A stretch of 37,671 nucleotides of DNA from Chloroflexota bacterium (GTDB lineage: Bacteria; Chloroflexota; Dehalococcoidia; Lucifugimonadales; JACPCL1), in the NCBI GenBank assembly GCA_016202485.1, contig JACQOP010000039.1:1-37671 (forward strand), given 5' to 3'. Below are positions 11,901 through 29,644 of this stretch, piece by piece (the stretch's first letter is position 1; the number at the start of each line of letters is the position of its first letter). A program made the position numbers and the translations under genes. The notes under the pieces are model-generated. The model worked only from the letters and a program-made list of their open reading frames with translations. It was not told where the DNA came from and made no database searches.

Positions 11901-11921
11901 AAATATCATCGCCAAGACCAT

Positions 11922-12013
11922 ATCCCTACGCTGGCATTACCCAGATCAGGTTCTAAGAAGGGTCGCCCCGATAGGTCGGGGCCTCTCAGCCTGGCTCTTA
12001 CCAAGCTCCCCTC
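11922..12013 (-). ncRNA. TPP riboswitch (THI element)
   Basis: Minus strand reads ...AGGGGAGCTTGGTAAGAGCCAGGCTGAGAGGCC...GACCCTTCTTAGAACCTGATCTGGGTAATGCCAGCGTAGGGA, containing the canonical CTGAGA and ACCTGATCTGG-TAATGCCAGCGTAGGGA motifs. Confidence 0.97.
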
Positions 12014-12110
12014 CGGTCACATATTCAACTCTAAGAGCGTATTCTAGAGACACAGGAGGCAGACGTCAATGGCTCCCTTGCCACTCCCCTTGCTTCCTCA
12101 TGACGGAGCG

Positions 12111-17718: not shown

Positions 17719-18396
17719 CTAGGAAGCAAGCTTCTGCAAGACCTGATTCCAGAAGTCAGCGCTCTTGACTCCGTAGCCTTCTCTGAAGGTGATGACTCCA
17801 GACTCGTCCACGCCAATCTTTGTGGACTGAGTGGTGATGCTGTAAGCAGGCAGCATCCCAGATGGGGCCTCTGCCACAGGCCAGGGGTAACCCTGGGCTT
17901 GCTTGTAGGCAACGAGGTCTGACAGCTTTTCTGTGGGGTCAATGCCGATGGCAATGAAGTCCACCTTGTCCTGGTACCCGGGATAAATGTCTTTTAGCGA
18001 CCGTAACTCGGCGCGGCAGACCGGTCACCACGTGGTGAAGAAGTAGAGGACAACAGGCCTCCCATCCTCTCGTAGGGATGCGAGGCTGGCGCTCTGCCCG
18101 CTGTCCAGCGTCAGGATGAAGTCCGGCGCCCTTTCGCCCACCTTGGAGCCGGTGGGGGGCAAAGGAGAAGGGGTTGGCGCCGCCTCTGCCTCAGAAGGGG
18201 TGGGCTGTGCAGCGTCTTCTCCTGCTGGCGCTGCTGGGGATGGAGTCTCTGCCTGGCCAGCCGCCAGGGAAGGGGTGGAATCGCTGGGGGTACTGGCCGG
18301 CGCGCCGCAGGCCACAGTCGCCAGCACCCCCACCGTCAGCAGGAGGGCACGGGCGTGGCTGGACATAATAGAAAACAGTCGCCTGCGTATGCTCAT
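17719..18396 (-). CDS. TlpA/redoxin-like thioredoxin-fold lipoprotein with in-frame TGA at catalytic CxxC position (candidate selenoprotein or disrupted gene)
   Basis: ORFs 18025..18468 and 17719..17964 are in the same frame, separated only by TGA at 18027..18025. Readthrough gives ...VVLYFFTTW[TGA]PVCRAELRSLKDIYPGYQDKVDFIAIGIDPTEKL...GVDESGVITFREGYG. Lipobox VLATVAC|G at N-terminus. Confidence 0.85.
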
Positions 18397-22419: not shown

Positions 22420-23121
22420 ATGCTGGATATACCAATAGCTTACGCCTTCAGCGCCGGAATGGTGGCGACCGTGAACCCCTGCGGGTTCGTGATGCTCCCG
22501 GCCTATGTTGCTTACCAGCTTGGCCTGGGCGACGAGACCGTACACCCAGTGAAGCGCATTGCAAAAGGGCTGGCCATGGGCCTTGTGGCAACCCTGGGCT
22601 TTGTGGTGCTGTTCGGTGCGGTAGGAGTGGTGATTGCGGCAGGAGGACGGGTGCTGATCCGGCTCTTCCCCTATGGGGGACTTGCCATCGGCATAGGTCT
22701 GATTGCCCTGGGACTCTACCTCTTGCTATCAGGCAAGCATCTGGGGCTAATGGTCGCCAGCCGTATCCAGGGGCCAAAGACCTTGCACGGGGCAGGACAG
22801 TTCTTCCTCTTCGGGATCGCCTACGCCCTGGCGTCCTTGAGCTGCACCCTGCCCATTTTTCTTGTTGTCGTTGGCAGCGCCCTTGCAGCAGGCGGCTTTA
22901 TGCCCGGGTTCGTCCAGTTCATCAGCTACGCTCTGGGCATGGGCCTGGTGCTGGTGGGTGTGACACTGGCGGTGGTGTTCTTTAAGACCGCAGTAAACCA
23001 GGGGGTACGTCTACTTCTGCCTTACGTGGAGCGGATTGGAAACGTAGCCCTCATAGCAGCAGGCGCCTACCTGGTGTATTACTGGACGGTCGGCAAGGGC
23101 AGCCCGCTGTTGTTCTCCTAA
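22420..23121 (+). CDS. ccdA: cytochrome c biogenesis / thiol-disulfide transmembrane protein, CcdA family
   Basis: AFSAGMVATVNPCGFVMLPAYVAY and IAYALASLSCTLPIFLVVV membrane Cys motifs. Confidence 0.9.
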   Translation: MLDIPIAYAFSAGMVATVNPCGFVMLPAYVAYQLGLGDETVHPVKRIAKGLAMGLVATLGFVVLFGAVGVVIAAGGRVLIRLFPYGGLAIGIGLIALGLYLLLSGKHLGLMVASRIQGPKTLHGAGQFFLFGIAYALASLSCTLPIFLVVVGSALAAGGFMPGFVQFISYALGMGLVLVGVTLAVVFFKTAVNQGVRLLLPYVERIGNVALIAAGAYLVYYWTVGKGSPLLFS

Positions 23122-27231: not shown

Positions 27232-27366
27232 GGCCGGCATACCGCACACATGAGGAAAACCAGACGCTGCGCCCTTTGGATAGGCTCTGGCATCTAACCT
27301 ACCCTAGCCAGTTGGATGTCAGGCGATTATACTTTCCCCTATCCCACCGTCCACCTGAGGGTCCAT

Positions 27367-28665
27367 ATGAAAGAACTTCCCAAGCTGCCGTTTCAGGGCG
27401 TCCCCACAGACCCCGCCACCCTCTTTGCTGATTACCAGCAGGCCCGCAAGGTCACCGAGGCCATCTGCGCCCCTCTGGAGATTGAAGACTACATGGTCCA
27501 GGCCATGACCGATGCCAGCCCCGCCCGCTGGCACCTGGGCCACGTCACCTGGTTCTTTGAGACCTTCATCCTGAAGGAGTACACGCCCGGCTACAAGCCC
27601 GTCAACGACGTGTACGCATATCTCTTCAACTCCTATTACAACAGCGCCGGCCCCCAGTTCTACCGGCCCCATCGCGGCCTCATCTCCCGGCCCACCGTTA
27701 AACAGGTCTATGACTACCGTAAGCAGATTGATGAGCACATGGCGGACCTCATTGAAACTGCTCCACCCCACCTAATGGAAGGCCTTGTGGGGTCCCTCAT
27801 CATCCTGGGCGTCAATCACGAGCAGCAACACCAGGAACTCCTCGTGACTGACATCAAGTACAACCTCTCGGTGAACCCCTTGCACCCGGTCTATCAGAAG
27901 GTGAACATACCCAGCCTACCCCCAGCAGCCCCCCTGCGCTGGGTGCATTTTGAAGGCGGCCTCCACACCATCGGCCATGACGCCCAGGGGTTTGCCTTTG
28001 ACAACGAATGGCCCCGCCATCAGGCCTACGTTGCCCCCTTCCTCCTCGCCTCCCGCCCCGTGACCAACGCCGAGTTCATGGAGTTCATTGAGGCCGGCGG
28101 CTATGAGCGGGTGGACCTGTGGCTCTCCGCAGGGTGGCGCACCATGAAGGAGCAGGGCTGGCAAGCCCCCCTGTACTGGGAGAAGCATGACGGCCTGTGG
28201 TGGCACCACACCATGTCAGGCTTTCTGCCCGTGGACCAGAACGCCCTCCTCTGCCACGTCAGTTACTACGAAGCCGACGCCTACGCCCGCTGGCGGGACA
28301 AACGCCTGCCCACAGAAGAAGAATGGGAATTTGCTGCCCTGCGCCAACCCCTTCAGGGCAACCTCCTGGAGTCCGGCCTGTACCACCCCCTCGGTGGGAC
28401 GTCACCCAGGGCCGGCCAGGAGCTGGAGCATATGTTTGGCGACGTGTGGGAGTGGACCAAGAGCGCCTACCTCCCCTACCCCGGGTTCCAGCCCCTCCAG
28501 GGAAGCGTGGGCGAGTACAACGGCAAGTTCATGGTCAACCAGATGGTCCTCCGTGGCGGCTCCTGTGCAACGCCCCTGTCCCACATCCGGCCAACCTATC
28601 GCAATTTCTTCCCGCCCGACGCCCGCTGGCAGTTCTCTGGAGTCCGCCTGGCGGACGATGCGTAA
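27367..28665 (+). CDS. egtB: ergothioneine biosynthesis protein EgtB (iron-dependent sulfoxide synthase)
   Basis: DASPARWHLGHVTWFFETFIL, NHEQQHQELLVTDIKYNLS (HxxxHxE), formylglycine-generating-like C-terminus MFGDVWEWTKSAYLPYPGF...MVLRGGSCATPLSHIRPTYRNFFPPDARWQFSGVRLA. Confidence 0.93.
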   Translation: MKELPKLPFQGVPTDPATLFADYQQARKVTEAICAPLEIEDYMVQAMTDASPARWHLGHVTWFFETFILKEYTPGYKPVNDVYAYLFNSYYNSAGPQFYRPHRGLISRPTVKQVYDYRKQIDEHMADLIETAPPHLMEGLVGSLIILGVNHEQQHQELLVTDIKYNLSVNPLHPVYQKVNIPSLPPAAPLRWVHFEGGLHTIGHDAQGFAFDNEWPRHQAYVAPFLLASRPVTNAEFMEFIEAGGYERVDLWLSAGWRTMKEQGWQAPLYWEKHDGLWWHHTMSGFLPVDQNALLCHVSYYEADAYARWRDKRLPTEEEWEFAALRQPLQGNLLESGLYHPLGGTSPRAGQELEHMFGDVWEWTKSAYLPYPGFQPLQGSVGEYNGKFMVNQMVLRGGSCATPLSHIRPTYRNFFPPDARWQFSGVRLADDA

Positions 28666-29644
28666 GGGAATTTCTGTGTCCTACTCTCTAGACGTGTTCC
28701 TGGAACCCTATGCCTTCAAGCAGAACCTGGCAGCCGATGTGCGCCGGGGCCTCACAGCACCACAGAAATACCTCCTGCCTAAGTATTTCTATGACGACGC
28801 CGGCTCAAAGCTCTTTGACCGCATCACGGAGCTGCCAGAGTATTACCTTACCAGGACAGAGCAACACCTCTTCTCGTCAGTGAAGCCCCACATCCTCAAG
28901 GCAACGCGCCCCCAAGAGGTCGTGGAGCTGGGCTGCGGCAACGGCGATAAGTTCCGCTGGCTCTTGCACGCTGCCAGGGACAGGGAAATCTCCGCCTACA
29001 TTCCAATGGACATGAATGCCGGCCTGGTGGAGTCCGTGGCCAGGGACCTCGTACGGGACTACCCATTCCTAGCGGTCCACGGAATCGTTGGAGACTTTGA
29101 AACGCACCTGGCCCACATCCCACCGCCAAAAGGCCGCCGCCTGGTCACCTTTATGGGCAGCACCATCGGCAACCTGGGCCCGGAGCAACGCAAGGGCTTC
29201 ATTGCTCAGCTACGGTGCCTCCTGGACGAAGGAAGCCATGCCCTGATAGGTCTTGACCTGGTGAAAGACGCAGGAATGCTGGAGGCAGCCTACAACGATC
29301 AGGCGGGGGTGACTGCTGATTTCAACCGGAACATCCTGCTTGTCCTGAATAGGGAGCTTGCCGGCGACTTCCGGCCTGAAACCTTTACCCATCACGCCTT
29401 CTTCAATAGAGAAGCCAGCCGCATAGAAATGCACCTGGTCTCCCGGAAAGAGCAGCAGGTGCGCCTCGCCGCTCTGGAAATGCAGGCAGCATTTCAGAGT
29501 GACGAGACCATCTGGACGGAAAGCTCCTACAAGTTCACCGTTGGTATGGTGGAAGAGATGCTGGCGGCAGGCGGTCTGCGATTGGAGCAGTGGTATACCG
29601 ATGAGGCAGGCTGGTATGCGTTGGCCCTCATTGGGACAGCCTAG
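28658..29644 (+). CDS. egtD: L-histidine N(alpha)-methyltransferase
   Basis: LTAPQKYLLPKYFYDDAGSKLFDRITELPEYYLTRTE...VVELGCGNGDKFRWLL...RRLVTFMGSTIGNL; start overlaps egtB stop by 8 nt. Confidence 0.95.
   Translation: MRKGISVSYSLDVFLEPYAFKQNLAADVRRGLTAPQKYLLPKYFYDDAGSKLFDRITELPEYYLTRTEQHLFSSVKPHILKATRPQEVVELGCGNGDKFRWLLHAARDREISAYIPMDMNAGLVESVARDLVRDYPFLAVHGIVGDFETHLAHIPPPKGRRLVTFMGSTIGNLGPEQRKGFIAQLRCLLDEGSHALIGLDLVKDAGMLEAAYNDQAGVTADFNRNILLVLNRELAGDFRPETFTHHAFFNREASRIEMHLVSRKEQQVRLAALEMQAAFQSDETIWTESSYKFTVGMVEEMLAAGGLRLEQWYTDEAGWYALALIGTA

Follow-up and report, generated by a model that had tools for sequence, protein, structure and literature searches.

A predicted selenocysteine in place of the first active-site cysteine of a ResA/TlpA-like lipoprotein from the Chloroflexota

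We analyzed a 37,671-nucleotide stretch of a Chloroflexota genome (GCA_016202485.1, contig JACQOP010000039.1; hereafter the window) and found a gene in which a mid-gene UGA, at codon 124, very probably encodes selenocysteine (Sec) at the active site of a ResA/TlpA-like lipoprotein, with decoding predicted to proceed via SelA, SelB, tRNA-Sec, and a SECIS element. The gene (17719..18396, minus strand; stop codon TAG) reads through as 225 residues with one TGA only (18025..18027, minus strand), in the context ...VVLYFFTTW-U-PVCRAEL..., and standard ORF calling splits it at this codon. An earlier note, made from the sequence alone, had described two same-frame ORFs split by a single TGA and had placed that codon at the nucleophilic Cys site of TlpA/ResA-like proteins; both observations held, as homologues carry their TGA in the same alignment column, the first Cys of CxxC (here UPVC). 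The predicted resolving Cys is TGC codon 127 (18016..18018, minus strand), invariant in the alignment. A global reassignment of UGA was rejected: TGA terminates 6 of the 34 open frames that we treated as genes in the window, and therefore still acts as a stop codon elsewhere in it.

Conservation of the TGA extended well beyond this genome. Orthologues in two members of the same genus (G001 and G003; 62 and 64% identity) each had a single in-frame stop, which was again a TGA and lay at the same codon, and no close copy was found in G002, the remaining genus member (84% complete). A profile built from the three genus orthologues and run against 393 genomes from the class retrieved a clade of strong matches, all but one with a single TGA in the first-Cys column, while CxxC paralogues had lower scores and nearly all lacked an in-frame stop. 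Across the order, class, and phylum, roughly 28 related genes have a lone in-frame TGA in this column, and this codon recurs in about twenty other genomes spanning many families; two TGA homologues, with UTTC and UGTC motifs, came from outside the class. A protein-level search of genome contigs returned remote relatives only. Within the genus, dN (0.18–0.25) was well below dS (0.7–1.3), with both sides of the TGA constrained and no relaxation on its 3' side.

The sole exception within the clade was a gene with a TGT codon and a CSTC motif (L054) in a 97% complete genome (G160). In this genome we detected no SelA over cut-off, no SelD, and no tRNA-Sec over cut-off, the best tRNA match being tRNA-Ser. 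Because the gene nests inside the Sec clade (support 96/96), its Cys is best read as a putative Sec-to-Cys change accompanying loss of the Sec trait. A Sec/Cys pair was also formed at this column with the CxxC paralogues. The exchange between U and C that the earlier note had proposed to look for among homologues is hence present and tracks the loss of Sec machinery, and the frame-disrupting changes that would have spoken against its reading are absent from close relatives, which retain the TGA. Its view that a random nonsense mutation or sequencing error was unlikely to fall on this codon gained support from the same-column TGA in about twenty genomes, a recurrence that makes sequencing error untenable.

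A SECIS-type hairpin follows the TGA (17997..18014, minus strand; GCGCCG-AGUUA-CGG(U)CGC), with 6 bp, a one-base bulge, a 5-nt loop, and 16 nt from UGA to loop. Its place is fixed across the family: counted from the T of TGA, positions 14–19 pair with 25–30, or with 25–31 around a one-base bulge, and the five loop bases mostly read AGUU(A/G/U). In 24 distinct sequences, compared with 300 replicates in which synonymous codons were redrawn, a mean of 5.9 of 6 pairs formed vs. 3.7 (sd 0.19) under resampling, and mean hairpin energy was −9.1 vs. −4.1 kcal/mol (sd 0.45); none of the 300 replicates reached the observed pairs or energy. Stem positions covaried: double-changed cells numbered 30 vs. 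11.4 in shuffles, and the covariation score exceeded that of every one of 500 shuffles and of every slid control. The hairpin was absent from 24 CxxC sites, which averaged 2.9 pairs and −3.8 kcal/mol, and from the corresponding site of the Cys orthologue in G160. The window copy taken alone is weak evidence (folding z −0.66, not significant; p about 0.08 in synonymous resampling); the strength of the SECIS case lies in the comparison. The published bacterial SECIS model specifies a loop of 3–9 nt, a stem of 4–16 bp, G in the first two loop positions, a spacing of 16–37 nt, and a minimum free energy at or below −7.5 kcal/mol (PMC13188914). The window hairpin falls within these limits (loop 5 nt, stem 6 bp with a bulge, G at the second loop position, spacing 16 nt, −7.9 kcal/mol). 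A SECIS downstream of the TGA, left by the earlier note to be searched for, is represented by a conserved, covarying hairpin.

The search for Sec genes across the genome, likewise proposed at the outset, succeeded in part. The window's own assembly (G000) encodes SelA (559 bits), SelB (326 bits), and tRNA-Sec with anticodon UCA; the search for SelD in this assembly, which is 77% complete, came up empty apart from a superfamily relative scoring below cut-off. SelD was also not found in G001 (94% complete), and both genomes have SelA and tRNA-Sec despite this. SelA occurred in all four genus members. G002 and G003 also have SelD, whose own gene contains an in-frame UGA, and across the order 44 of 59 genomes had a SelD match over cut-off. 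For G000 and G001, gaps in the assemblies would most simply account for its absence, with real loss as the alternative. We propose that tRNA-Sec(UCA), Sec-loaded through SelA, would read UGA124, with SelB delivering the Sec-tRNA at the hairpin that starts 10 nt past the UGA. This insertion is inferred from features evident at the sequence level: UGA conservation, the SECIS-type hairpin, genes for the decoding machinery, and the fold.

Two other explanations of the UGA itself were considered. That a nonsense change from TGC or TGT, or an assembly or sequencing error, left a pseudogene of two dead fragments is compatible with a TGA one base from either Cys codon and with the split made by ORF calling, but we give this almost no credence given the identical TGA in so many genomes and families, the purifying selection continuing 3' of it, and the covarying hairpin. 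It also seems highly improbable that UGA is read as another amino acid, either as Cys through a Sec-like or Sep-dependent tRNA, or through SelA loading sulfur without SelD. SelD was indeed not found in G000 and G001, and RNA-dependent Cys synthesis is known in a phylum to which the organism may belong (PMC5424206). However, that work deals with tRNA-Cys and nowhere mentions UGA in its text, two same-genus genomes have SelD, the assemblies of G000 and G001 are incomplete, and canonical SelA, SelB, and tRNA-Sec are present.

The N-terminus resembles a lipoprotein signal, after which comes a linker. By eye, the predicted signal peptide (18307..18396, minus strand) ends at Cys30 (TVAC/GAP), and Cys30-Gly31-Ala32-Pro33 is invariant in the three genus members; a low-complexity linker rich in Pro, Thr, and Ala follows (18160..18306, minus strand). 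The remaining 146 residues (17722..18159, minus strand) are, according to the structural model (pLDDT 96.5), a TlpA/ResA-like thioredoxin fold, and the nearest solved structure was ResA of Bacillus (4nmu; TM 0.88, 25% identity). Pfam matches were AhpC-TSA (E 1.4e-15, the best), Redoxin (2.5e-12), and PF13905 (8.5e-8), and the NCBIfam ResA model (NF002854) scored 50.6 bits, below its curated cut-off of 170. The earlier note had considered the cis-Pro region intact, which proved wrong because Ser or Ala fills the column in 18 of 20 aligned clade members, usually after Gln and including the window protein and the Cys member, while the aligned CxxC paralogues keep Pro. In the window protein the region reads QSTK, with Ser112 of the domain in the cis-Pro column. 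The cis-Pro probably contributes to the substrate site and may shield CxxC from metals (PMC2757866), and therefore the chemistry of a protein that lost it may differ from that of ResA. This loss suggests an active site not tuned to ordinary polypeptide disulfides.

Given the fold and the UxxC motif, the protein is most likely an extracytoplasmic reductase. It would be anchored as a lipoprotein on the outer side of the cytoplasmic membrane, a location deduced from its N-terminus, where the Sec124 selenolate would attack a disulfide-type substrate and Cys127 would resolve the selenenylsulfide. A selenoprotein with a job other than disulfide reduction, binding or reducing metals, metalloids, or peroxides, with Ser in place of cis-Pro, is a possibility that we hold tentatively and consider somewhat unlikely. 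A cis-Pro column filled by Ser or Ala, the best Pfam match to AhpC-TSA, and another UxxC protein of the genus (L049) that adjoins a MerE-like gene point toward such a role, while the disulfide reductase ResA supplies the closest structures, a resolving Cys makes UxxC a dithiol-type motif, the peroxiredoxin Arg is missing, and no metal-related neighbor stood out in 12 neighborhoods.

Gene neighbors varied between families. In the window and G003 the gene is adjoined by glyA, and in the window and G001 by an alpha/beta hydrolase on the other side, both shared only within the genus. No conserved operon partner of the DsbD/CcdA or cytochrome maturation type stood out in plain ORF listings of 12 neighborhoods. 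At 4 kb from the gene, the window encodes a CcdA-like membrane protein (22420-23121, plus strand) with NPCG and SCTLP motifs and no Pfam match (even at E 1) or NCBIfam match, possibly an electron donor or a divergent family. Elsewhere in the window, a TPP riboswitch (11905-12022, minus strand; 62.4 bits) lies 5' of genes for an ABC transporter and its NMT1-like binding protein, along with a TenA-like gene (names by eye). EgtB-like and EgtD-like genes adjoin at 27316-29644 (plus strand; by eye), and this adjacency suggests a potential for ergothioneine-type synthesis.

Some genomes have more than one copy of the gene. Two UxxC genes lie side by side in several genomes (G099, G009, G069, G340, G285, G182, G224, and G267), and L060 (G359:C199) has two UxxC domains in one open frame, with a P/T-rich linker between them and TGAs at 1783 and 2545, making it a candidate two-Sec protein. 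Other in-frame TGAs were observed in the genus. The window's genome holds a second candidate selenoprotein, L044 (G000:C48, minus strand, TGA at strand position 1651), with an AhpC/TSA domain carrying WUPYC and a C-terminal part weakly like DsbD_N; a comparable UPYC arrangement occurs in L027 (Pseudohongiella). UxxC proteins of Redoxin type with an FPGUPTC motif (L049, G001:C28, plus strand, TGA 1612; L037, G002:C129, minus strand, TGA 1603) are encoded beside a small MerE-like membrane protein; they have a hairpin in the same register (loop AGGCU) and Gly at the cis-Pro column. In G003 (C307, plus strand, 2435), a DUF3179 protein (L038) has an in-frame TGA (YUPLC), DUF3179 being an already listed selenoprotein family (PMC13188914).

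The predicted protein resembles ResA of Bacillus (4nmu, 1st9; NF002854) in fold, in its membrane-anchored TlpA-type domain, and in the two-residue active-site spacing, but differs in carrying Sec where ResA has its first Cys, Ser in the cis-Pro column, and a lipoprotein anchor with a long P/T-rich linker. Known UxxC selenoproteins include a Prx-like thiol:disulfide oxidoreductase (PF00578) and a Redoxin family (PF08534) (Table 1 of PMC13188914), which, compared by description only, share Pfam families, UxxC, and a bacterial SECIS with the present protein. The other UPYC proteins (L027, L028, and L029) fall in different AhpC/TSA branches. A UxxC selenoprotein that resembles thiol-disulfide isomerases (cd02966/PF13905) and was originally described from the Sargasso Sea (PMC1088965) is, again by description only, similar in having a TlpA-like domain with UxxC (PF13905 8.5e-8 here). 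A TlpA disulfide reductase family selenoprotein (cd02966; PMC13188914, Table 1) shares the TlpA-type fold and an active-site Sec, with a UGC motif as opposed to UxxC here. Since UxxC selenoproteins with a thioredoxin fold are already well known (PMC13188914, Table 1; PMC1088965), the present family is a variant subfamily and no new kind. We found no earlier description of it in the literature searched, which left out most subscription papers, and a variant UxxC subfamily that lacks cis-Pro and includes tandem copies and a candidate two-Sec fusion is apparently undescribed there.

These results point to a family of exported selenoenzymes in a lineage where they are easily missed, as standard ORF calling cuts the gene at the UGA. 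The family also presents a Sec-to-Cys change coupled to the loss of Sec machinery and a SECIS traceable by covariation. More speculatively, and in our view less likely than not, these could be lineage-specific, outward-facing UxxC lipoproteins that lost cis-Pro, whose Sec would serve a chemistry different from simple disulfide reduction, for instance the handling of metals, metalloids, or peroxides, and which spread as tandem and fused two-Sec copies. Sec without cis-Pro would make this family a test case for the contribution of selenium to extracytoplasmic thiol chemistry.
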